From contig NZ_BMGT01000001.1 of the NCBI RefSeq assembly GCF_014640335.1, positions 62,001-126,000 on the forward strand: a stretch of 64,000 nucleotides of DNA. Reading direction: 5' to 3'. The number at the start of each line of letters is the position of its first letter. Position 1 is the stretch's first letter. This stretch comes from Edaphobacter dinghuensis. Lineage in GTDB: Bacteria > Acidobacteriota > Terriglobia > Terriglobales > Acidobacteriaceae. Shown here piece by piece: positions 38,487 to 51,250 of this stretch. Made by a program: the position numbers and the translations under genes. The notes under the pieces were generated by a model, which ran no database searches, was not told where the DNA came from, and saw nothing but the letters and a program-made list of their open reading frames with translations.

Positions 38487-40619
38487 TCAGTACACCTTTA
38501 GTTGTGCCCGGAGACGAATGTCGTCTGATGATGCTCCTATCATCACTTCGAATGTCCCTGGAGCAACAGTAAATTTATGGGTGGTTACATCATAATAAGA
38601 GAGCTGTGAGACCTCTAGAGAGAGCGTGATGTGCTTTGTCTCACCGGGAGCAAGTTGCACGCGTTCAAAACCTCGTAGGCTTTTGATAGGTTGTACGACA
38701 TTCGATTTCAATTGATGAACATACATCTGCGCAACCTCTGCCCCTTCTCTTCCCCCTGTGTTCTGCACGTCGAATGAGACTTCAACGTGGCCTACAGTAC
38801 TAGTAGTAGCTCGTGTCAGCTTCAGATCGCTAAATTTGAATTGCGTATAACTGAGGCCATGCCCGAAGGCATATAACGGTATCCCTTTGAAATAGAGATA
38901 GGTGAAGCCTTTGGAAACATCATATTCGTTTTGCGGCGGAACTCCGTCCAGGCTGGCATAGATGGTATAGGGTAAATGTCCACCTGGATTGTAGTCTCCC
39001 AACAATACCTGCGCGATTGCCGTACCACCTGACTCCCCCGGATACCAGGCATCGAGGATGGCTGGCAGATGATCGTTCGCCCAGGTGACAGCTAATGGTC
39101 CAGCATTCATCAATACAAGAACTGTCTTTGGATTGGCGGCATAGACGGCCTCCATCAGTTGCTTTTGCGCGCCCGGCAGATTTAGATCACGCCGATCTCT
39201 GCCTTCAGCCTCAATACTAAGATTCGTGCCGAGAAAGAGAATTGCAACATCCGACTTGCGCGCCAGATTAGCCGCGCGTGTGATGGCGGCCGGATCGGCA
39301 GGCTCAACAAAACCCGTTCCCTGTTCGTACTCAACATCAACTCCCGCGCCCAGAGCATCTTTCAATCCCTGAAAAGGGCTAATTTTTCGTGCAGGTTTTC
39401 CGTAATAATTTCCAGTCTCATAGTTAATGTCGCCAGCCGGGCCAATCACTGCTACGCGTTTCAGATTTTCTTTTTTAATAGGCAGAAAGTTGTGATGGTT
39501 TGTAAGCAGCGTCATTGACTCAAGTGCAGTCTGTAGCGAGAGCTGCAGATGTTCGTTGGAACGAATGACACTAGCTGGAATCTTCGTGTAAGGATTCTCT
39601 GTAGGAGGATCAAAAGCACCCAAGCGAAAACCCACCGTGAGTACGCGCGCCAATGCACGATTCACATCTGCAATTGGCAGACGTCCACTTTTTACAGCCA
39701 GAGGGATATTGGTCTCGAATTGCGCATCGTCTGAATCACAACCGGCCTGAATGGCACGCGCAGTAGCCTCAACAGGATCTTCAGTGATGTGATGTCCTGT
39801 AACCAGCAAATTAACACCGCCGAGATCATCCGTTACAAATCCATCAAAGTGCCACTTCCCTCGCAGGATGTCGGTCAGCAGATAGTGATTAACAGCATCC
39901 GGCGTACCATTGATCGCATTATAGGAAGCCATTACAGACTGTGCGTGACCTTCTGTAATGACAACCTTCCATTGTGGCAACCAGTACTCTATCAAATTAC
40001 GCTCGTCAACTGCAGCCGACAGATGCTGACGATTAGTTTCAACGTTATATACCGCGAAGTGTTTTACCGTTGCAGCAACTTTCAAATAGTGAGGATCGTT
40101 GCCCTGCAGCCCTTTGACATATGCCACTCCCATACGTCCGGTCAGATAAGGATCTTCACTGAATACTTCCTGAATGCGTCCCCATCGCGGATCGCGGCTG
40201 AGATTAATGACTGGAGAGCGAAATACCAAACCGTGCTTTGAACGAGGCCCATCTGCATTGATGTTATAAAGCGCTCGTGCCTCATCGGACATCGCTCCTG
40301 TAATGCTCTGAATCAGCGACGGATCCCAAGTAGCTCCCATTGCAATGGGGGCTGGAAACAGAGTTGTCGGCTGCTTCGACCACACACCGTGTAGCGTCTG
40401 GTTCCAACCGCCCCATGCTTTTACGTTGAGGCGAGGTATTCCAGTATTTAGATGATTTAGCTGTTCAGCCTTTTCCTCGAGAGTCATCCTTGAGATGAGA
40501 TCATTCACTCTTATCTGAATCGGCTTCGAGGGATCAAGGTACGCCGGTACAGATGTAGTCTGTGCAGAGGCGCTACAAAAAATAAACAAGACACTGCAGA
40601 AGACCGCAACGAGCTTCAT
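38487..40619 (-). CDS. Glycoside hydrolase family 3 (beta-glucosidase / beta-xylosidase)
   Basis: 710 residues with a signal peptide (MKLVAVFCSVLFIFCSASA). Domain order: GH3 N-terminal barrel (residues about 30-340) with SPVINLSRDPRWGRIQEV, KHFAVYN and the nucleophile Asp in FDGFVTDDLGG; GH3 C-terminal alpha/beta sandwich with KRVAVIGP, FLGTNLSIEAEGRDRRDL; and a fibronectin III-like domain at the end (VSFDVQNTGGREGAEVAQM). It releases a terminal beta-linked glucose or xylose. Last gene of the seven-gene operon, 24 bp after the dehydrogenase gene. Together with GH39 it suggests a beta-xyloside substrate; this is inference. Confidence 0.93.
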   Translation of the reverse strand: MKLVAVFCSVLFIFCSASAQTTSVPAYLDPSKPIQIRVNDLISRMTLEEKAEQLNHLNTGIPRLNVKAWGGWNQTLHGVWSKQPTTLFPAPIAMGATWDPSLIQSITGAMSDEARALYNINADGPRSKHGLVFRSPVINLSRDPRWGRIQEVFSEDPYLTGRMGVAYVKGLQGNDPHYLKVAATVKHFAVYNVETNRQHLSAAVDERNLIEYWLPQWKVVITEGHAQSVMASYNAINGTPDAVNHYLLTDILRGKWHFDGFVTDDLGGVNLLVTGHHITEDPVEATARAIQAGCDSDDAQFETNIPLAVKSGRLPIADVNRALARVLTVGFRLGAFDPPTENPYTKIPASVIRSNEHLQLSLQTALESMTLLTNHHNFLPIKKENLKRVAVIGPAGDINYETGNYYGKPARKISPFQGLKDALGAGVDVEYEQGTGFVEPADPAAITRAANLARKSDVAILFLGTNLSIEAEGRDRRDLNLPGAQKQLMEAVYAANPKTVLVLMNAGPLAVTWANDHLPAILDAWYPGESGGTAIAQVLLGDYNPGGHLPYTIYASLDGVPPQNEYDVSKGFTYLYFKGIPLYAFGHGLSYTQFKFSDLKLTRATTSTVGHVEVSFDVQNTGGREGAEVAQMYVHQLKSNVVQPIKSLRGFERVQLAPGETKHITLSLEVSQLSYYDVTTHKFTVAPGTFEVMIGASSDDIRLRAQLKVY

Positions 40620-40643: not shown

Positions 40644-41546
40644 TTAGCAAATCTGTTTCTCAATTTGAATGGGTGTTATTTTGTCGCGAAGTAGTTCTAT
40701 CACCGAAGACATGTCTTTATCAGCAAATCCTTTTGCCGCGGCCATCTCAAAGAGGCAGCGCGCTGCTTTAGCTGTTTTGAGGCTCACATGGTTTTGAGCC
40801 GCTTCTACTTCTGCATATCGAAGGTCTTTTTCCATTAGCTTGAGAGAAAAATTCACAGAGTAATCGCGCTCCGTCATCCGTGCTGAAACTGCACTGAACA
40901 GCGGGCTTCCCGGCGCTCCTGCTTTGAGTATTGCAAGCGCCTTCTCTACGTTCAGCCCACTTCTCTCAATCCACGTTAGCCCCTCCGCTAGCGATGCGAC
41001 CTGTACGCCACAGAGAAAATTGTTGATTAATTTCATCTTGGCTCCACTTCCAATCGGCCCAAGATGAATGATCTCTTTACTCATCGCCTTCAATATCGGC
41101 ATTGCACCTTTCAGAGTTGCGTCATCGCCGCCAACGAGAAAGGAAAGTTGGCCAAGCTTTGCCTGTACCCGGCTTCCCGTTACAGGAGCATCCAGCAGCT
41201 TCGCGCCTTTCCGTGAGGCAAGACTAGCAAGCTCCGCTATCCATGCCGGACTAACAGTACTCGATTCAACCAGGATCGTCTCTTTTTTGGTAGTCGTAAG
41301 TGCTCCATTGCTCCCCATCCATACATCGCGAGAGGCTGCGTCATCGGCAAGCATGCTGATGACAACTGCGGCATCTCGAGCAGCCTCCGATGGAGTGGAT
41401 ACGAAACGCGCGCCATCACCGATCAACGCCTGAGCCTTTTCCGGCGTTCGGTTATAGACTGTCAGCGAGAATCCCGCCTTCAACAGATTTTCCGCCATGC
41501 CTGTTCCCATCGTGCCCAAGCCAAGTAACGCTACATCCTTACTCAT
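40644..41546 (-). CDS. Beta-hydroxyacid dehydrogenase (3-hydroxyisobutyrate dehydrogenase family)
   Basis: 300 residues, cytosolic. Rossmann motif VALLGLGTMGTGMAENLLKAG at 5-25 with TVYNRTPEKA after it. The substrate-binding block is LDAPVTGSRVQAKLGQLSF near 120, and the catalytic Lys lies in MKLINNFLCG near 170. The family (GarR, YihU, MmsB and relatives) reduces semialdehydes or oxidises beta-hydroxy acids. In this operon it could act on an aldonate-derived intermediate, either reducing tartronate semialdehyde-like products or oxidising a keto-deoxy sugar acid. ATG 41546; 23 bp follow the GguC gene. Family certain, step inferred. Confidence 0.92.
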   Translation of the reverse strand: MSKDVALLGLGTMGTGMAENLLKAGFSLTVYNRTPEKAQALIGDGARFVSTPSEAARDAAVVISMLADDAASRDVWMGSNGALTTTKKETILVESSTVSPAWIAELASLASRKGAKLLDAPVTGSRVQAKLGQLSFLVGGDDATLKGAMPILKAMSKEIIHLGPIGSGAKMKLINNFLCGVQVASLAEGLTWIERSGLNVEKALAILKAGAPGSPLFSAVSARMTERDYSVNFSLKLMEKDLRYAEVEAAQNHVSLKTAKAARCLFEMAAAKGFADKDMSSVIELLRDKITPIQIEKQIC

Positions 41547-41569: not shown

Positions 41570-42583
41570 CTAAACGAGCGGATACACCGTCACCAACTTC
41601 TTATCTGCTCTCTCTACCCGAATAGGATTGCGCAGAGCTCTTCCGAAGCCTTCATAGCGAACCGCCATCCAGTCTCCATCTTCGAGCACAATGTCGTCAC
41701 CGAAACTAAGTGAATGGGCTCCAAAGAAGTGCACGTGCACATCTCCCGGCTGGCGATGTGCTTCAAATTTAAAGTGATGATGTTCCATATTGGCCAAGCT
41801 GTGGCACATATTCTCTTCACCTGTAGCGATTGTCTTCGCCCAGATTATTTTTGCTTCGCGCTCAATGTGAACCTCTCCAGCAATCGATTGAAAGTCACCA
41901 CCGACTATTAGCTCCGGCCCCAAACTGCAGTTTCGAAGCTTCGATCCTGCCAGATTCAGATAGTTGCGCTTTTCAAAACGATGATCGGAAAACTCGTTGC
42001 CTGTCGTAAATCCGACACGATAAGGCTGGCCGTCTTCTCCAATGATGTAGACGCCTGCCAATTCTGCCTCCTCACCTCCATCCTCTGCATAGGTGGGTAT
42101 TGTAAGAGGAGCAAAAGGCGCTTTCAATATTGAACCGTCCCCTTTATAGAACCACTCTGGCGCAACTCCTATCTCGCCATTAGAGGGCCGTCCTCCCTCC
42201 ACTCCCCACTGAAACATTCGCATGCTGTCCGTCATCACTTCAGAAACCTTCGAAGTACTGACGGCATGCATTGCCTGTCGCTCTTTTGCACTTCCCAGAT
42301 GTGTCAGCCCGGTGCCAGAGATCATCAGACGAGAAGGCATGTCAGGAACATCGATCGGAGGCATTAGATGCCACTCTGATTTGCCAGCATAGATTAGGTC
42401 ATACGGCAGCACCTCCCCATGTGCTAATGCAAATACCTTTTCGCTCAAATGACTGCCACCGGGGAGGTATTGCTGTACCAACTCATAAACACTGTGTATC
42501 CCTATTAAACAGCGCAGGTTCGGCTCTTCAACCAATGCCACTCGCCGAGAAGAACCATTTCTGATCTGAACAAGATGAATCAT
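41570..42583 (-). CDS. GguC / AraD1-type FAH-fold protein
   Basis: 337 residues. The C-terminal two thirds read like the fumarylacetoacetate-hydrolase fold: FTTGNEFSDHRFEKRNYLN, SKLRNCSLGPELIVGG and LEDGDWMAVRYEGFGRALRN, with acidic residues placed for a divalent metal. The N-terminal domain (HLVQIRNGSSRRVALVEEP, HSVYELVQQ) is the AraD1/GguC type. FAH-fold members cut C-C bonds of diketo acids or dehydrate keto-deoxy sugar acids. The place right after an aldonate dehydratase gene (12 bp) suggests work on the 2-keto-3-deoxy acid or its oxidised form. Start ATG 42583. Confidence 0.85.
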   Translation of the reverse strand: MIHLVQIRNGSSRRVALVEEPNLRCLIGIHSVYELVQQYLPGGSHLSEKVFALAHGEVLPYDLIYAGKSEWHLMPPIDVPDMPSRLMISGTGLTHLGSAKERQAMHAVSTSKVSEVMTDSMRMFQWGVEGGRPSNGEIGVAPEWFYKGDGSILKAPFAPLTIPTYAEDGGEEAELAGVYIIGEDGQPYRVGFTTGNEFSDHRFEKRNYLNLAGSKLRNCSLGPELIVGGDFQSIAGEVHIEREAKIIWAKTIATGEENMCHSLANMEHHHFKFEAHRQPGDVHVHFFGAHSLSFGDDIVLEDGDWMAVRYEGFGRALRNPIRVERADKKLVTVYPLV

Positions 42584-42595
42584 GATTTACCTGCC

Positions 42596-43768
42596 TTACT
42601 CAATTATCTTGAAGCGCTTCAGAGACTTCTCGTTGACAGTAAGCCCCAAGCCCGCAACGTTTTCGTCGAGATTAATGTAGCCATCAACCGGAGTGGGTTC
42701 GCCATCGAAGATGTACCAGAAAAGTTCGTTGCCGACTTCAACATCAACCTGAGGAAAGAACTCTGCCATTGGAGAGTTGAGGCTGGCCATCACAACGTGG
42801 TAGTTGTGCATCTGCCCTGCATGCGGAACCACTGGTATCTGAAACGACTCTGCGAGTGCAGAAATTTTACGAGCCTGACTGATACCGCCAACACGGTTTG
42901 TGTCGAACTGAATATAGTCCAGTGCATTTGCTTCCAGCAGGTCACGGAAGCCGAAGATCGTGAACTCATGCTCACCACCAGCAATGGGCACATGTCCATG
43001 GGACTTTAGTTCTTTGTACCCACGTGTATCATCAGGAATAACAGGCTCCTCCAGCCATCGAAGATGGAATGGTTCCAACAACGGCAACATGCGTTTGGCA
43101 TAATCGAGCGTCCACCCCATATAAGCATCGGCCATTAAATCGATGCCATCGCCAACGACCTCACGTATCGTACGCAACAACTCGATGTTGCGCTGCATCC
43201 CTTCAGCGCCATCAACTGGTCCCCACCCGAAACGCAATTTCATTGCTTTGTATCCCTGGTCTTTGTACCGTTGTGCCTCAATGCGGAGTTCGTTCAGGGG
43301 CATACTATAAAGACGGCTGGCATAGACGGGAATTTTTTTCTTTGTGCGTCCCCCTAGTAATCGATAGACAGGCTGCTTCGCCGATTTGCCCATTAGGTCC
43401 CACAGGGCGATATCAACTGCGCTGATAGCTGTCATTCCGATTCCTTTTCGTCCGAAGGCCATCGTCCGACGATACATCTGCTGCCAGAGGTACTCTGCGT
43501 CCCAAGGGTCTGCCCCGATTAAAAGAGGTCTTAGATAATTGTCGATGCAGGATTTGGTGACAAGAGGCGACAGAGCGGCATTACCTAGTCCAACTAATCC
43601 CGCATCAGTAAATACTTCGACGAGCACCCACTCATGAAATGCAAAATTTTCCATGGAAGCTTCGCGAAACATCACCAGATCCATCGGGTTGGTACAAAAA
43701 TGGGGAGGAAGTGGAGTGGTTTTGCCTTCCCATTGAACGACTCGTGTGCGTACTTCTGTAATCTTCAT
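42596..43768 (-). CDS. Enolase-superfamily sugar-acid dehydratase (L-rhamnonate-dehydratase-like)
   Basis: 390 residues. MR/MLE N-terminal cap, then a barrel. The general-base region is GYKAMKLRFGWG. The metal ligands are Asp in LMADAYMGW, Glu in LEEPVIPDD and Glu in IAGGEHEFT. His in VVPHAGQMHNYHV is the acid/base, and NSPMAEFFPQ closes the site. The blocks YRRTMAFGRKGIGMTAIS, VDIALWDLMGK and WGFR-like FGFRDLLEAN resemble L-rhamnonate dehydratase more than D-galactonate or mandelate enzymes. It would turn an aldonate into 2-keto-3-deoxyaldonate. The exact sugar (rhamnonate, lyxonate, xylonate, mannonate) is undetermined. ATG 43768. Confidence 0.88.
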   Translation of the reverse strand: MKITEVRTRVVQWEGKTTPLPPHFCTNPMDLVMFREASMENFAFHEWVLVEVFTDAGLVGLGNAALSPLVTKSCIDNYLRPLLIGADPWDAEYLWQQMYRRTMAFGRKGIGMTAISAVDIALWDLMGKSAKQPVYRLLGGRTKKKIPVYASRLYSMPLNELRIEAQRYKDQGYKAMKLRFGWGPVDGAEGMQRNIELLRTIREVVGDGIDLMADAYMGWTLDYAKRMLPLLEPFHLRWLEEPVIPDDTRGYKELKSHGHVPIAGGEHEFTIFGFRDLLEANALDYIQFDTNRVGGISQARKISALAESFQIPVVPHAGQMHNYHVVMASLNSPMAEFFPQVDVEVGNELFWYIFDGEPTPVDGYINLDENVAGLGLTVNEKSLKRFKIIE

Positions 43769-43793: not shown

Positions 43794-45065
43794 TTAGCTG
43801 TTTCTTGTTAGCAAATCTGGAGCACGAAGCGGCTGCACCTTGCCTTCCAAAAACAGGATGGCAAGAAATCCAATGATGTGAAAAGTTCCAACAATACAAA
43901 ACAACATTCCATACCCAAAGCCATGGCCTAATAGGAAACCGGCGATCACGCTAAAGACAGCGCCGCCGATAGCGCCGCCAAAGCCAACGAGGCCAGACAC
44001 AGTTCCAACTGCCGACAAAGGAAAGATATCCGCCGGCAATGTCATAATGAGTCCTGACCATGATTGCTGACAGAAAAACGCAATACTGAACAGTAGCAGA
44101 GCCCATCCCACAGGAACGTGCGGAACAAACATAACAACTGGCATAAAAAGTGCGCTGACGCCCAGAACAAACTTTCGTGAGAAGTCGAGAGACCTCCCCT
44201 TCGCCAGCAGTACGCTTGATAGCCAGCCCCCCAAAAAGCTTCCTACGCCTGAAGCAGCATACGGAATCCATGCATAGTAACTAACGTGCTTGATATCGAA
44301 CCCACGCATGTCATACAGATATTTAGGTAGCCAGAAGAGATAGAAGTACCATGCGGAGTCGCTCATGAATTTGGCAAATACCAGTATCTTTACCTTACGC
44401 ATTCCAACTATCTCTAGAAATGACATTTGCTGTGCAATCAATCTTGCATCGAGGGTAGCGATAGAAGCATCGTTACTCCCGTGATAGCTAGCCCACCACC
44501 ATATGACCCAGGCCAAGCCAATCGCACCTGACACAAAGAAGACCATCCGCCATCCACTTGTAAGCAACACAATTCCGATCAAAGGCGGAGCCAACACCGA
44601 TCCCACAGCCGTCCCAGCATTAATGATTCCCATGGCGGTAGAACGCTGATTCAAGGGAATCCACTCTGCAACTACCCTCGTTGCTGCAGGAAAAGCTCCC
44701 CCCTCTCCCATGCCCAATAGGCAGCGAGCACCTAACAAAACAGTAAAGTCCGTAGCCAATCCATGTAGCGCACATGCAACCGACCACCAAAGCATAATGA
44801 GCAGAAATCCGCGGCGTGTTCCCAGTAGATCGAGCATCCTTCCACCTGCCGCGTACAACAATGCGTAAGGAATTAGAAATGCAAACTGAAGCCACGAAAA
44901 TTGCTGGTCACTGAGCGGTATTGTCCGCTGAATCGCAGAAATGGCAACCGGCAGCGTTTGCCGATCGAAGTAGCTGATGGCAATTGCCGCTGTGACCATC
45001 GCGACAAAGTACCATTGCACTTCTATGAGTCTGTGCTCCTTGACGCTCCCTACTGATATCGCCAC
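43794..45065 (-). CDS. MFS transporter, anion:cation symporter (hexuronate/aldonate) family
   Basis: 423 residues with 12 hydrophobic helices, inner membrane. FDRQTLPVAISAIQRTIPLS in helix 1, GGRMLDLLGTRRGF in loop 2-3 and LLGMGEGGAFPAATRVVAEW in helix 4 are hallmarks of the ACS family (ExuT, GudP, RhmT). These carry uronates, aldonates and glucarate with protons. GTG start at 45065, 4 bp after the GH39 stop. Gives the operon its route across the inner membrane and supports a sugar acid, not a neutral sugar, as the imported compound. Confidence 0.92.
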   Translation of the reverse strand: MAISVGSVKEHRLIEVQWYFVAMVTAAIAISYFDRQTLPVAISAIQRTIPLSDQQFSWLQFAFLIPYALLYAAGGRMLDLLGTRRGFLLIMLWWSVACALHGLATDFTVLLGARCLLGMGEGGAFPAATRVVAEWIPLNQRSTAMGIINAGTAVGSVLAPPLIGIVLLTSGWRMVFFVSGAIGLAWVIWWWASYHGSNDASIATLDARLIAQQMSFLEIVGMRKVKILVFAKFMSDSAWYFYLFWLPKYLYDMRGFDIKHVSYYAWIPYAASGVGSFLGGWLSSVLLAKGRSLDFSRKFVLGVSALFMPVVMFVPHVPVGWALLLFSIAFFCQQSWSGLIMTLPADIFPLSAVGTVSGLVGFGGAIGGAVFSVIAGFLLGHGFGYGMLFCIVGTFHIIGFLAILFLEGKVQPLRAPDLLTRNS

Positions 45066-45069
45066 ATCA

Positions 45070-46752
45070 TCACCATTTCAAATGCAGCAATGAAGTAGCC
45101 TGGCGAGGAAGCTCAGTAGCAATTGTCACCTTACCATCAGCCACATTCAGCCATTTCGGAGAACTCAGAAGCTCTAACTGACCAGCTTCTTTCAATCGGG
45201 CATATTGTGCTTGCGTCGGCTCCTGTGGCGATCCCATCGCCTTCCAGACATGGTAGGAATTGCTATGCGTCTCATCAATCCTATAGTGCTGCAATAGCAC
45301 TCTTTTTATATTCGATGGAATCCCTGAGATCGTTACCTGCACTTGAGCACCGACAGCTGGGACATCATCATCATGGTAGTCCCAGATCATGACCGCAGCC
45401 TCGCGGTCGCCTTTGGTTGCTAAAGCGTCAACATCGTCGGCATTTCTCACTCCGGAGCTGAGAATGTCCTTCAAGGGTATCTGCCCGGTGCTGTTTGTAC
45501 TGACTCGTTCACCCGACATCAACCCAGCCATACGGAAGACATTGAGAATCGGTTTGTCGATTCCATTTGTCGACAGCGTACGGAAGCCTTCAAAGTATTC
45601 CTTGCCTTCGAACTCAAATGCCCATGACAACATGGCAATCAGGTCGACTTTGTACTGATCCCGCAGATCAAATAACGATTTAATTGCAGTGGCTGTATAT
45701 GCCGGATACAACGGTCCATTGCGATAAGCATTGGCTGGATTGACCTTCATCGAGCAAGCGGCACATCCTTCAGGATCGGCTTCACTGAGAATGATAGGAA
45801 GATGGGCATACTTCGGATAGCTCGCTACAATACTGAAACCCTTTGCTGCAGCGTTTAATTCATTTGCTAATCCCATCTGCACATGTCCATCAACAACTGT
45901 CGGACGGCCTTTGGGATGAAATGAAATAAAATCGAGCGGAATCGCCTTTCCGTCCGCTGCACTTTTATCGTTTAGACAATGTTTGAGAAAATTATTCAAA
46001 AATACTGATGCTTTTTCAGAAGCTGGTCCCGTGCTCGCCGGGCCACCTACGATAGCATTCGGCAGAGCCTTTCGGACGCCATCCACAGCATAGTCATATA
46101 ACTTGTAGTACTCCTCGGGAGTGCCGTGCCAATAGGCGATATCAGGCTCATTCCAGACCTCGAAGTACCACGAACTTACCTCGCTCTTTCCATAGCGCTG
46201 AACAAGGTGCTCTGTATACCGCCGCACCAACTCTCCCCAAAGCGCATAATCTCGAGGTGGATTATTAGATGCGCCCGAGATAGTGCTTTTCGGATAGCGG
46301 ACCTGGTATTCATCAACTCCCGGAATTTTCGTGGCAAGATCTTTCGGCATGAAGCCCAATTCAACTACTGGACGAACTCCTGCTCTTTGGAATTCGTCGA
46401 AGGTTTTATCTGTGATCGTAAAGTCATATACAGGCTTTCCGTTGGCGTCCACGGTAAATACATTGGAAGAGCTCCACTTCAACTCGGCAACTCCATTGCC
46501 TGAAGTCAACAGGTGATGCGCTCGAATGTATACAGGCTCCGGGCTGAGATCGTGCAACTCTCCCAACAACTGCTTACCGTACTTCATTGTTGTGTAATTC
46601 GACTCGTCATATCCGAACCAACGATAGATAGGTGTATAGGCTCCCACGGGCTTTGCAAGATTCACTTGAATCGATACCGGGTTTGTTGATGGTGCCTGCG
46701 CCGCAGCCTGAATAGCAGCAGCACAGAGCAAGGTCATTGCAAGTTTATGCAT
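45070..46752 (-). CDS. Glycoside hydrolase family 39-like (beta-xylosidase type)
   Basis: 560 residues with a signal peptide (MHKLAMTLLCAAAIQAAA). Clan GH-A barrel with PVYIRAHHLLTSGNGVAEL near residue 75, acid/base Glu in WYFEVWNEPDIAYW near 195 and nucleophile Glu in PIILSEADPEGC near 325. FISFHPKGR supplies the preceding His strand. A beta-sandwich ends the protein. GH39 members are beta-xylosidases or alpha-iduronidases; the presence of a uronate/aldonate-type transporter leaves a uronic-acid glycoside open. Periplasmic or external. Second gene of the operon, 19 bp after the receptor gene. Confidence 0.85.
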   Translation of the reverse strand: MHKLAMTLLCAAAIQAAAQAPSTNPVSIQVNLAKPVGAYTPIYRWFGYDESNYTTMKYGKQLLGELHDLSPEPVYIRAHHLLTSGNGVAELKWSSSNVFTVDANGKPVYDFTITDKTFDEFQRAGVRPVVELGFMPKDLATKIPGVDEYQVRYPKSTISGASNNPPRDYALWGELVRRYTEHLVQRYGKSEVSSWYFEVWNEPDIAYWHGTPEEYYKLYDYAVDGVRKALPNAIVGGPASTGPASEKASVFLNNFLKHCLNDKSAADGKAIPLDFISFHPKGRPTVVDGHVQMGLANELNAAAKGFSIVASYPKYAHLPIILSEADPEGCAACSMKVNPANAYRNGPLYPAYTATAIKSLFDLRDQYKVDLIAMLSWAFEFEGKEYFEGFRTLSTNGIDKPILNVFRMAGLMSGERVSTNSTGQIPLKDILSSGVRNADDVDALATKGDREAAVMIWDYHDDDVPAVGAQVQVTISGIPSNIKRVLLQHYRIDETHSNSYHVWKAMGSPQEPTQAQYARLKEAGQLELLSSPKWLNVADGKVTIATELPRQATSLLHLKW

Positions 46753-46771: not shown

Positions 46772-49700
46772 CTAAAAGTTGTACTTCAACGCGAACTGGA
46801 TATCACGCGAAGGAATGGAAGTGGAGGTAATGGTGCAGCAGGATGAAGCATCAATCGTCGAGCTTGGGGCATTAAAGCTGGTCGTATTTGGCAAGTTGAA
46901 GAACTCTGCACGGAACGAGAGAGTAGACTCCCCGGGCATCGCAAAGTCCTTGAAAATTGAGGCATCGTATTGGCGGAAAGCGTCGGATTGAAGCGTGTTG
47001 GCGAGAACCTGTCCATAGGTATATTGCGGAGCTACAACGTATTTTGTCTTGTCGAACCAACTCGTCAACGATCGATGAAATGTCGGCGATCCACCCGCAG
47101 GATTGAGATTCGGCCGCTGCGATCCGACACCGGTATTTGCTCGGTCCGATGAAACCACTGGCGTATATGGAGTCCCGCTCCGCAGAACGATGATTGTCTG
47201 CACCTGCCATCCACCTAACGTAGCGTCAATAAGTCGGTTGCTGTTCCCCATATACTTCCGTCCTCTCCCTATTGGCAGTTCGTACGTGCCACTGATCGCC
47301 AAATTCTGAGGAGTATTGAAGGGAGAATAAGTTCTCTCATATCCGAGATTGCCACCAACTGCAGACGATTGATTCGACTGCATGAACTTAGACCACGTAT
47401 AGGAGATCAACCCTGTCAAACCGTTACCGGCACGATGTTCGATCTTCGTCTGCAATGATTGATATGTTGTTCCAAGATCCTGAGACTGGTAGGTAATGGT
47501 TCCCCATGGCTGGTATGGGCGTCGCGCCTGCACTCCGCCGGGGCCGGGGGATGGATCGTTGAAGTCATCTGTGCTCTGCAGATGAACCCCATGATTTCCT
47601 ACATATGCAATGTCAAATACTGTCTTGGGAGTAAGTTGTTGCTGCACACCGAAGCTGTAGTGCTGGTTCGATCCTACCTTTAGATGGGTCAATGTCGGTA
47701 GAAGCGATGGATTAGCGGTTGCTGAACCAAGCTGCGAACCGAGGAAGAAGTTTGCAGTCGTACGCGTTGGGACTATATTCTGCGTCTGGTTGACTGTCTC
47801 CGATAGCAAGAATGGCAAGATATTACGATTCACGCGGCCTCCGGTACCTTCAGGCTCGTAGAAGATGCCGAAGCCTCCGCGAACAACTGTATTGTTTCCA
47901 AGTGGACGCCATGCAAATCCAATCCGCGGACCGAACTGGGTTCTGTCTGTGTACGTAATTGAATAAGGAAGTCCTGCCTGGCTGCTGGTCTGAATATATT
48001 GACCAAAAAATTGATACGCGGCAGGAGCAGCATATTGCGAAGATAGATCCACTTTATCGGTATGACTTTCAACGATGATCGGCTTGGCCTGCGATGCATC
48101 GAATGTACCTAGCTGCCCTTTATATCCATTCAGCCATGGGGAGTACTCGTATCGTAGGCCAACATTCACAGTTAAGCGATCATTTACTCGAATATCGTCC
48201 TGAGCAAAATACTGGTGATACCAGCGCTGTCCGCCAAAGTTAGCTCCTGGATAGGCTCGAGCCACAGAAGCAGGATATCCCAGCAGAAAGTCTGCAAACG
48301 CATCACCGCCGGTAGTATGAGACGGAGTTGCAGTAGGATTCTGTGTTTCGATTCCGGTGAAGTTGAAGATGCCGGCGTAGTTTGAGCTGTCATAACCAAT
48401 CCACTGGTAATAGCGCACTAATACGCCAAACTTCAAAGAGTGCTTTCCCTTCAGGATCGTAAATGTGTCTGTAGGTTCAAAGACCGTGCGATCCTGAGAC
48501 TTCGGACGCTGATCAAAGGCCGATCCCTGCAGAGCGCTATACCCGCTGAAGGAATAGTCCGGAAACGATCCTCCCGTTCCAGGCCGCAACAGCCCACTAA
48601 ATCCTGCAATGCCGTTCAACCCATTGAAGTCAGGTCCCTGCAAAAACGCAGCAAGCCGCACATGGCTGGGAAGGTAGTGCACGCGAAAGTCCTGTACCTT
48701 ATTGGCTCCAATATTTGTAATGAGGCCTACCGCGATGTCCTGACCATTTGAAGTCAGTGATGCAGTCTTCAGCAGCGGAGCGGCATTGGGATCCACCTCT
48801 CGATTATTGACGTACACCCAACGGCCGAAGAGGTGATTGGAGCTGCTAATTTGATGATCGATCCGTATGGTGAACTGGTCCCAATCAATTGCCTGAGATG
48901 GAACGGCTTCGAAGTTTGTCGCGCCAGTGTTTGCATGCGGAATGTAAGCCAACACAGCTGCTGCTTGGCTTGGAATTCGCGATGGACAGATTACATTGAG
49001 CACCCCATTGCAACTGATCTGCTGCCGCGTAATGGTTGTACCATTCGTTACCGTCGTCAACGGATCATAGATCGGCTTCAACCCCGGTGCGCTGAAGTCG
49101 CCATTTCGCTCTGCATCTGTCGGCACTGTGCTGTTAACAACTAAGCCCTGCCGAAGCCTCTGGGCTTCATAATCGAGGAAGAAGAATGTTTTATCCTTCC
49201 CGCTATACAGGTGTGGAATGGATAACGGACCGCCGATGGCACCTCCAAATTGATTACGCTTCAAGATAGCGCGCGTCGTTGAGAAGAAGTTGCGAGCATC
49301 CAACTTGTCATTACGGATAAATTCGAATACGCCGCCATGAAACTTATTTGTGCCGGATTTGGTAGTGGCGTTGAAGAACGCACCCCCACGGTTGTACTCC
49401 GCAGAATAGGGACTCTGCTGCACACTGAACTCCTGCAATGCGTCAATCGAAGTCTGGATGAATGTGCCCCCCTGATGCTGCTCACTCACATCCACGCCAT
49501 CCAACAGAAACGAGATAGCACTTCCGCGAATGCCGCTGATCGTATTTCCGTCGACAACCTCGGGCCGGATTGCCAATGAGTTACCGGTCGGCGGCAAAAG
49601 GGCAGCTCCAGGAGTCAACTCTGCCAGGCGGAAAAATCCACGGCCATTAAGCGGCAGGCTGGTCAATTGATGATTGCTGATTACCGTACCGATCGTTGCT

Positions 49701-50107
49701 GTATCCGTACTGAGCAGCGGCGTTTCGACCGTCACATCAATCGTAGTATTCTCAGAACCCAGTTGGAGAGCAAGATCCTCTCGAACCACCTGTCCAACCT
49801 GAACCTCGACGTTTGAGGTGCTAACGACAGAAAAGCCTTTGGCTGTCACTGTCAGGTTATAGACTCCAGCCTGCACGGGAGTGATTACATATTCGCCATC
49901 GGCATTGGTGGTAGCGGTCTGCACAATATTAGTTCCAAGGTTAGTCGCCTTGACAGCGGCGTTCGGAACAAGCGCCCCCTGAGGATCGGTGATACGCCCC
50001 ACAAATCGGCCCGTTTCGACCTGTGCCATCGCCGCTGAAACGCTGATAAGAATTGCAAAGGATGTTGCTATCAGGCCCATTCTGACGTGGCTATCGATCT
50101 TTCTCAT
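46772..50107 (-). CDS. TonB-dependent receptor-type outer-membrane transporter (Oar-like)
   Basis: 1111 residues from ATG 50107 (MRKIDSHVRMGLIATSF), which has GAGGT 5 nt upstream; the frame is open to 50134. Signal peptide, CarboxypepD_reg sandwich (GRITDPQGALVPNAAVKATN, DGEYVITPVQAGVYNLTV), a plug with QLTSLPLNGRGFFRLAELTP and FLLDGVDVSEQ, and a long barrel ending SRDIQFALKYNF. The terminal Phe is the barrel-insertion signal. First gene of a seven-gene operon, so it probably imports the oligosaccharide cut by GH39 and GH3. The plug is complete, unlike in the barrel protein at 815-3889. Confidence 0.92.
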   Translation of the reverse strand: MRKIDSHVRMGLIATSFAILISVSAAMAQVETGRFVGRITDPQGALVPNAAVKATNLGTNIVQTATTNADGEYVITPVQAGVYNLTVTAKGFSVVSTSNVEVQVGQVVREDLALQLGSENTTIDVTVETPLLSTDTATIGTVISNHQLTSLPLNGRGFFRLAELTPGAALLPPTGNSLAIRPEVVDGNTISGIRGSAISFLLDGVDVSEQHQGGTFIQTSIDALQEFSVQQSPYSAEYNRGGAFFNATTKSGTNKFHGGVFEFIRNDKLDARNFFSTTRAILKRNQFGGAIGGPLSIPHLYSGKDKTFFFLDYEAQRLRQGLVVNSTVPTDAERNGDFSAPGLKPIYDPLTTVTNGTTITRQQISCNGVLNVICPSRIPSQAAAVLAYIPHANTGATNFEAVPSQAIDWDQFTIRIDHQISSSNHLFGRWVYVNNREVDPNAAPLLKTASLTSNGQDIAVGLITNIGANKVQDFRVHYLPSHVRLAAFLQGPDFNGLNGIAGFSGLLRPGTGGSFPDYSFSGYSALQGSAFDQRPKSQDRTVFEPTDTFTILKGKHSLKFGVLVRYYQWIGYDSSNYAGIFNFTGIETQNPTATPSHTTGGDAFADFLLGYPASVARAYPGANFGGQRWYHQYFAQDDIRVNDRLTVNVGLRYEYSPWLNGYKGQLGTFDASQAKPIIVESHTDKVDLSSQYAAPAAYQFFGQYIQTSSQAGLPYSITYTDRTQFGPRIGFAWRPLGNNTVVRGGFGIFYEPEGTGGRVNRNILPFLLSETVNQTQNIVPTRTTANFFLGSQLGSATANPSLLPTLTHLKVGSNQHYSFGVQQQLTPKTVFDIAYVGNHGVHLQSTDDFNDPSPGPGGVQARRPYQPWGTITYQSQDLGTTYQSLQTKIEHRAGNGLTGLISYTWSKFMQSNQSSAVGGNLGYERTYSPFNTPQNLAISGTYELPIGRGRKYMGNSNRLIDATLGGWQVQTIIVLRSGTPYTPVVSSDRANTGVGSQRPNLNPAGGSPTFHRSLTSWFDKTKYVVAPQYTYGQVLANTLQSDAFRQYDASIFKDFAMPGESTLSFRAEFFNLPNTTSFNAPSSTIDASSCCTITSTSIPSRDIQFALKYNF

Positions 50108-50169
50108 GTGCGACCTCGTATATTTTCTCCACATCCATAGCGGGAGACTATTTTTTGAACGAGTGCAAA

Positions 50170-50178
50170 GGTAGTACC
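50170..50178. promoter_or_regulatory. GGTnGTACC palindrome, candidate GntR/FadR-type operator (receptor-side)
   Basis: GGTAGTACC, 63 bp upstream of the receptor ATG on the minus strand. It has the GGT-N3-ACC layout seen at operators of FadR-subfamily GntR regulators (PdhR, LldR, GlcC). A second copy with the same core lies 145 bp away near the regulator gene. Confidence 0.5.
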
Positions 50179-50322
50179 AAAATGAAGATCATGTCAAACA
50201 AAAAATTTGAGGGCGATCTTGCGGTCTTCAAATAAATCAGTAATTGCAGCGCTCTATTGAGGAAAGTGGGATTAAAATCATTGCTACCGTCCGCAATAAT
50301 AAATTCATATTTCCCCTAAAAC

Positions 50323-50331
50323 GGTCGTACC
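50323..50331. promoter_or_regulatory. GGTnGTACC palindrome, candidate GntR/FadR-type operator (regulator-side)
   Basis: GGTCGTACC inside the perfect dyad arms CGGT/ACCG, 65 bp upstream of the GntR start. It shares seven of the nine bases that matter with the receptor-side site (GGT, GTACC) and is placed at nearly the same distance from its gene. This suggests one dimer site per promoter. Confidence 0.5.
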
Positions 50332-50395
50332 GATGGTTGCGACTTCTATAGATTCAAATTTGACAAAGCTCGCAATGATACGGATTATTTGAGGA

Positions 50396-51250
50396 ATGAA
50401 TGGACGACGTAAGTCTCCAATTGACGATAGCGAACATATCCTCAGCAATAAGGAGGATGTCACTCACCTCCTCATTCTGCGTTTTCAGCAACTGCTGAGT
50501 GATGGAGTGCTGTCCCCCGGAACAAAGCTGCCATCGGAACGGGAACTTGCCGCGAGCTTTGGAGTCGCGCGCTCGTCCCTGCGTCAAGCTCTTAAAGTAT
50601 TGGAGATTATGGGCGTCATCACACAGAAGGTTGGGGACGGCAGCTATCTGAACAAAGATGCCTCTTCTGTTCTGGCGGTCCCCATGGAGTTCTTGTTCCT
50701 GCTGGACGACACGTCGCTCCAAGAGCTGACCGAGATGCGGCTGATGATGGAACCTGCTCTGGCTGCCAAAGCCGCCGAGCGCGCCACGTCACAGCATATT
50801 GCACTCTTGAAGCAGTCCATCACCGACCTCGAACACAGCAAGCAAGATCGTGTCCGGCTAGTTGCGTCAGATATCCTCTTTCATCGTGCTATCTTTCAGG
50901 CTTCCGGAAATCGTCTCGCCGGTCGGCTTTTTCATACAATTCACCGCGCCATGCTGAACATGATTATGGTAACTTCGCAGCTCGTCGAGCTCGAACATAC
51001 TCTGCATTTTCACCAACCCATCTTAAATGCCATCGAACAGCGCAATCCTGAGCTTGCCGAACGCCTCATGGCTGACCATCTGAATGACGCACGAGATTTG
51101 CTGCTTAACAGCCGCAACCAGGAAAGATCACGCAAATTGCGCGACCATCTCGCAACCGGCTCCCCACTGCACAAACTGCCGGGTAAGGCAGGCAGCTCTA
51201 AGTCCGCAACGCGTTCCAAAGTGAAAAATAGCGGTGGCAGCCATCTATAA
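50396..51250 (+). CDS. GntR family regulator, FadR (FCD) subfamily
   Basis: 284 residues. The N-terminal winged helix at about 20-90 has LSPGTKLPSERELAASFGVA, then RSSLRQALKVLEIMGVI and GDGSYL. An FCD effector-binding domain follows at about 100-245, with ELTEMRLMMEPALAAKAAER, FHRAIFQASGN and HQPILNAI, whose Asp and His residues usually bind a metal and a carboxylate ligand. A basic Lys/Ser tail ends it. Divergent from the seven-gene operon and separated by about 290 bp with two matching palindromes. It is thus very likely the operon's repressor, sensing a sugar acid. Start ATG 50396 abuts GAGGA, so the true start may be slightly different. Confidence 0.92.
   Translation: MNGRRKSPIDDSEHILSNKEDVTHLLILRFQQLLSDGVLSPGTKLPSERELAASFGVARSSLRQALKVLEIMGVITQKVGDGSYLNKDASSVLAVPMEFLFLLDDTSLQELTEMRLMMEPALAAKAAERATSQHIALLKQSITDLEHSKQDRVRLVASDILFHRAIFQASGNRLAGRLFHTIHRAMLNMIMVTSQLVELEHTLHFHQPILNAIEQRNPELAERLMADHLNDARDLLLNSRNQERSRKLRDHLATGSPLHKLPGKAGSSKSATRSKVKNSGGSHL

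Follow-up and report, generated by a model that had tools for sequence, protein, structure and literature searches.

In the 64,000-nt stretch of Edaphobacter dinghuensis DNA analysed here (the window), a 288-bp gap separates the start of an operon headed by an outer-membrane receptor from the start of a divergent GntR/FCD regulator gene, and two palindromes lie inside this gap. Are they operators of the neighboring regulator, and if so, would the regulator act through them on the operon, on its own gene, or on both?

A divergent locus with two palindromes

The first-pass annotation had reported one GGT-N3-ACC palindrome for each divergent arm, and both are present: GGTAGTACC on the operon side (50170-50178) and GGTCGTACC on the regulator side (50323-50331), 153 bp apart. 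GGTA-S-TACC (4+1+4) describes the motif better; GGTAGTACC conforms to it perfectly and GGTCGTACC with one mismatch (C for A). Their reported distances of 63 and 65 bp to the two genes hold as to position, and the exact gaps by our count are 62 nt from GGTAGTACC to the receptor start codon (50107) and 64 nt from GGTCGTACC to the regulator start codon (50396). We took 50107 as the receptor start, with GAGG ahead of it; the start at 50134 in the list of open reading frames has no such sequence.

The window alone is weak evidence. It holds three matches to GGTNGTACC against 0.71 expected and 18 occurrences of GGTNNNACC against 9.4 expected, and because shuffled windows reach these counts (at least three and 18, respectively) in 2 of 100 cases each, single-window significance is modest. 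Significance stems from conservation, and the comparison between genomes is decisive. The third GGTNGTACC match, GGTTGTACC at 49034-49042, is within the receptor coding sequence and probably reflects chance.

The regulator (50396-51250, plus strand, 284 aa) contains an N-terminal GntR winged helix-turn-helix (PF00392, E = 1.7e-15, 56.9 bits against a cut-off of 27) and a C-terminal FCD effector domain (PF07729, E = 2.3e-23, 83.4 bits against a cut-off of 24.3). With both domains above their Pfam cut-offs, its earlier placement in the FadR subfamily of GntR regulators is confirmed. Residues D159, H163, H206, and H228 are invariant in 30/30 orthologs and in 13/13 aligned distant homologs. They may correspond to the Asp and three His metal ligands of many FCD proteins, which would be consistent with a metal-dependent carboxylate pocket. 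Over both domains the protein is related to NanR, LldR, PdhR, and GlcC (NCBIfam NanR E = 5.6e-36), and its solved relatives include NanR (6on4, E = 1.4e-19) and PdhR (9jpj, E = 1.6e-12). Because its scores are far under the curated cut-offs (for NanR, 124 bits against 260), we do not class it as any of the four. NanR is described as binding GGTATA repeats (PMC8012715), unlike the GGTASTACC palindrome found here.

All operon genes are on the minus strand. Gene 1, the outer-membrane receptor (46772-50107), was assigned from its domains (CarboxypepD_reg and OMP_b-brl_4) and from synteny. It is followed by a GH39 glycosidase (45070-46752), whose nearest solved relatives are beta-xylosidases, and an MFS transporter (43794-45065), for which the best NCBIfam model is the D-galactonate transporter 2A0114, at a score under its cut-off. 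The next gene encodes an enolase-superfamily (MR/MLE) protein (42596-43768), probably an acid-sugar dehydratase judging from its domains and solved relatives; the closest of these are three entries, one of them named putative galactonate dehydratase, and then rhamnonate dehydratases. The GguC/AraD1-family protein (41570-42583; NF040903, 438.8 bits against a cut-off of 340), which has no solved relative at E up to 1e-10, is presumably the counterpart of the Herbaspirillum COG3970 enzyme. A protein of the beta-hydroxyacid dehydrogenase family (40644-41546; similar to 2-hydroxy-3-oxopropionate reductase and HIBADH, below cut-offs) and a beta-xylosidase-like GH3 glycosidase (38487-40619; best NCBIfam model Xyl3A, below its cut-off) complete the operon. 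This gene content suggests oxidative use of pentoses from xylo-oligosaccharides, with a sugar acid as inducer.

Read towards the operon, the first palindrome forms part of the block TTGACA-N13-GGTASTACCTTT. The putative -35 box of the receptor operon, TTGACA (50192-50197, minus strand), is 13 nt from the operator, and the putative -10 box, TACCTT (50168-50173, minus strand), is 18 nt from the -35 box and overlaps the operator; it shares only 3/6 positions with TATAAT.

Conservation of the operon-side site

Among 398 genomes of the family, 61 contain a match to the regulator at E up to 1e-30. As orthologs we took the 27 best matches (E up to 4.5e-78, 50-100% identity) and three loci from named contigs, giving 30 loci; the 12 named related contigs are labeled mostly Granulicella, Edaphobacter, Acidobacteriaceae, and Acidobacteriales, with one Acidobacteria and one MAG Rhodanobacteraceae. 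The first divergent gene is the receptor, GH39, or MFS in 28/30 loci, and where GH39 or MFS comes first, the site sits ahead of that gene. Locus L040 has the site, yet no operon gene within the 16.8 kb available, and L098 is interrupted by a contig end, with 140 nt of upstream sequence only.

A motif search of these orthologous intergenic regions found the operon-side palindrome kept. Exact GGTASTACC lies between regulator and operon in 28 of the 30 loci (300 shuffles of the gaps, which ignore common descent: mean 0.01, maximum 2), and in 27 of the 30 it is accompanied at 12-13 nt by TGTCAA, the TTGACA box in the other orientation (300 shuffles, with the same limit: mean 0). The loci lacking the exact site are L083, with only GGTATTACC, and L098, with only GGTTCTACC; L076 has the exact site and GGTCAA instead of TGTCAA at the spacing. 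In 14 more distant regulator loci, the site is absent even when one mismatch is allowed, although two of these regulators (L091, L094) do adjoin GH3 and MFS homologs. In an alignment of 23 of the 30 loci, operator columns average 1.92 bits, against 0.34 in the spacer and 0.18-0.26 in the flanks. The -35 columns are invariant by construction in this alignment, and the 12-13 nt spacing is also seen when it is not required. Next to the operator and outside the search motif is a TTT whose three positions are conserved in 22, 23, and 23 of 23 loci, in line with the putative -10 box.

In L080 and L081 (genomes G295 and G180), the promoter-operator module appears to be duplicated: one site follows the other, and both face the operon with TTGACA or TTGACG 13 nt away.

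We scanned the 398 genomes for the complete module, GGTASTACC-N12/13-TGTCAA, and found 32 matches in 26 genomes; a reversed control gave one match in each of 7 genomes. The module is present in 24/27 genomes with a regulator ortholog against 2/371 others (Fisher p = 5e-33, relatedness ignored). Twenty-four of the 32 matches are at the regulator locus, four precede a receptor elsewhere, two a GH3 gene, and one an unrelated receptor, while a single match is inside an open reading frame (G138). The four receptors elsewhere, which lie beyond the regulator or on a different contig, belong to one genus (G148, G128, G256, G277) and probably reflect one rearrangement event; the two GH3 genes are on other contigs (G182, G343).

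Operon genes that are displaced from the locus carry the site as well. Eight loci have at least 13 kb of upstream sequence but no close GH3 (G182, G343, G348, G148, G128, G168, G035, G186). A search of these genomes found GH3 elsewhere in four (65-77% identical) and none at E up to 1e-150 in the remaining four, and every one of the four displaced GH3 genes has the exact site, with TTGACA, TTGACT, or TTGACG standing 13 nt from it. The receptor is missing from the locus in four searched genomes, of which only that of L040 has a close receptor elsewhere (67% identical), and TTGACA-N13-GGTACTACC stands ahead of it. In all, 9/9 displaced operon genes have their own exact site and a -35-like box at 13 nt, several of them from one shared rearrangement. 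The displaced GH3 gene of G182 (C3; L143:2353 and 2507) has two copies of GGTAGTACC 154 bp apart, of which only the proximal one has a -35 box at 13 nt, and no regulator homolog was found in the 5.5 kb of sequence covered.

Control of the operon by the GntR/FCD regulator is well supported by these comparisons. Repression is the simplest and likeliest sign of this control because the operator, at a constant distance of 12-13 nt from TTGACA, overlaps the putative -10 box. We put at roughly 0.86 the probability that both palindromes are operators of the regulator, with the operon-side one repressing at the -10 region and a sugar-acid metabolite releasing it. A regulator dimer on GGTAGTACC would cover the -10 region of the TTGACA-N18-TACCTT promoter and exclude RNA polymerase from the receptor-GH39-transporter-dehydratase-GguC-dehydrogenase-GH3 operon. 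Release of the repressor would follow when the FCD domain binds a sugar-acid metabolite, for which a pentonate or 2-keto-3-deoxypentonate derived from xylo-oligosaccharides is a candidate. GGTCGTACC would be a second operator that either tunes the level of the regulator or aids repression as an auxiliary operator. The earlier proposal of one protein that both represses the operon and regulates itself thus stands as far as operon control is concerned (28/30 loci, 9/9 displaced genes); repression is read from the position of the site, and the regulator-side site may serve autoregulation.

The first-pass annotation had also suggested a genome scan for further sites beside glycan genes. A wide regulon of this kind is not supported: the genome of E. 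dinghuensis contains 76 GGTNGTACC matches, fewer than the 286 of the reversed control and hence no enrichment, and eight of the 11 other GGTASTACC sites fall within stop-to-stop frames of at least 299 codons. Three are outside such frames, one in a GGDEF/acetyltransferase-like gap, one 5 nt ahead of a TerC frame, and one upstream of a further receptor gene. AAAGGTASTACC has a single zero-mismatch occurrence in the genome.

At this second receptor (G000:C4:194327; L140:1128 / L145:2028), GGTAGTACC lies directly downstream of a putative TTGACA-N17-TATATT promoter. We compared the upstream regions of 12 of its 37 homolog matches, the E. dinghuensis one included. The site is exact in E. dinghuensis and G310 and has one mismatch in G305 and two in G343; the other eight of the 12 have nothing similar at the corresponding place, and one of these (G404) has an exact site further upstream. 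Such GGT-N3-ACC variants suggest control by some GntR-type regulator. In G391 (C21, L142:6247), which has no regulator ortholog match, the module precedes a different receptor (26-33% identical) in another gene neighborhood. Given these two cases, there may be another regulator that recognizes sites of this type.

The regulator-side site and competing explanations

From a comparison of promoter layouts, we propose for the regulator a putative -35 box TTGACA (50360-50365, plus strand) and a putative -10 box GATTAT (50383-50388, plus strand), the latter 7 nt before the ATG. The same layout of TTGACA-like box, 16-18 nt, -10-like hexamer, 5-8 nt, and ATG occurs in 22 of the 30 orthologs (200 shuffles: mean 0.95, maximum 4), and the regulator mRNA is predicted to be leaderless. 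Leaderless genes make up a mean of 13.3% in three Acidobacteria genomes according to Table 2 of PMC3160421. In the window, the regulator-side site is centered near -69 of the predicted start, 28 nt upstream of the -35 box.

The near-equal distances of the two sites from their genes had been read as a sign of autoregulation, an argument that the promoter layouts do not support. The operon promoter would have a 5' leader and the regulator promoter looks leaderless, and because the predicted geometry differs between the arms, equal distances carry no weight; moreover, the regulator-side site lies outside the putative promoter and only 14 of 28 loci have a second site close to the regulator. Two sites (up to one mismatch) occur in 16 of the 30 loci. 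The regulator-side one is 62-67 nt from the regulator start in 11 loci, 77-78 nt in three, and 107-110 nt in L080 and L081, where it is part of the second of the two modules that face the operon and has CGTCAA 13 nt away. Of the 28 loci whose first gene is known, 12 have a single site, which in the shortest gaps (122-153 bp) might act on both arms; in the others the second site is 62-78 nt from the regulator start (14 loci) or further away (two loci).

A tentative but serious explanation is that the second site is an auxiliary operator, raising repressor occupancy at the operon promoter through cooperativity or DNA looping, rather than a site of autoregulation. Its distance of 27-32 nt (11 loci) or 42-43 nt (3 loci) from the putative -35 box of the regulator favors this role, because a protein bound there would not block RNA polymerase at the regulator; so does the G182 GH3 gene, with no regulator homolog in the 5.5 kb covered and with its paired exact sites at close to the window spacing. 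Against it, in the 16 two-site loci the distance to the regulator start is independent of intergenic length (r = 0.07), whereas the inter-site distance scales with it (r = 0.93, slope 0.84, relatedness uncorrected). A test for helical phasing of inter-site distances, as looping might produce, gave no signal: the maximum R of 0.51 for 15 distances is reached by 15% of jittered sets, and that of 0.38 for nine thinned distances by 86%.

We consider it unlikely that the locus is an asymmetric divergon with two operators, in which repression of the operon from the -10 site is combined with a separate action through the site near -69, where the regulator either activates its leaderless promoter or buffers its synthesis. 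Site centers at -67 to -72 (11 loci) or -82 to -83 (3 loci), upstream of the -35 box, would suit an activator, but these positions are scattered over half a helical turn, and most regulator -35 boxes are near consensus, so that activation seems unnecessary. If this arrangement were true, repressor supply and operon repression would be set separately.

More doubtful still is that a different transcription factor uses the sites, or that GGTASTACC is an element of the promoter and not an operator. The constant spacing to the -35 box is promoter-like, and the presence of GGTAGTACC at the second receptor promoter of E. dinghuensis could point to another factor; however, the module occurs once in this genome, and 24 of the 26 genomes with the module have the regulator. 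Nor does a TGTCAA-like box occur at the module spacing on the operon-facing side of the 14 regulator-side sites (the opposite side was inspected by eye only), which argues against a promoter element and led us to reject the second site as part of another promoter. That the palindromes are functionless products of chance, as the 2 in 100 shuffled windows with at least three GGTNGTACC would allow, is hardly credible given their conservation and the sites ahead of displaced genes.

Relation to known systems

If both palindromes are operators of the regulator, the locus has close counterparts. In the main text of a survey of the FadR subfamily (Suvorova, Korostelev and Gelfand, 2015, PMC4494728), operators mostly have 3 nt between GT and AC, in agreement with the form recognized in the first-pass annotation. 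The divergons with separate double sites described there share with ours a GntR/FCD regulator and a palindrome of this spacing, and the separation of their sites likewise increases with intergenic length. The motif itself differs from the TKGT/ACMA boxes of that survey: the promoter-side outer base is T, not the expected A, in 22/23 loci, and the other side has the expected outer T in 11/23, which leaves the full boxes unmatched. A further difference from those divergons is that the regulator-side site here is upstream of a predicted leaderless promoter. The main text of the survey makes no mention of Acidobacteria, whereas the present case is acidobacterial. Judged by its sequence, the case joins a known class, the FadR-type divergon with two separate operators, and is an ordinary bacterial sugar switch.

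The putative pathway can be compared with the non-phosphorylative pentose pathways of Herbaspirillum, which, as described by Watanabe (2019, PMC6336799), share with it an acid-sugar dehydratase and FAH-superfamily enzymes acting on 2-keto-3-deoxypentonate. The D-arabinonate dehydratase of Herbaspirillum is reported there to be of the UxaA/GarD type, whereas the enzyme encoded here belongs to the enolase superfamily.

Among the open-access papers listed in a literature search, titles and abstract openings showed no such carbohydrate-regulator regulon for Acidobacteriaceae. While general understanding of these switches is unchanged, our analysis gives a carbohydrate regulator of soil Acidobacteriaceae a concrete candidate operator, an operon to act on, and regulon members away from the locus, and would link beta-xylosidase-like GH39 and GH3 enzymes, together with an acid-sugar pathway, to a single regulator.
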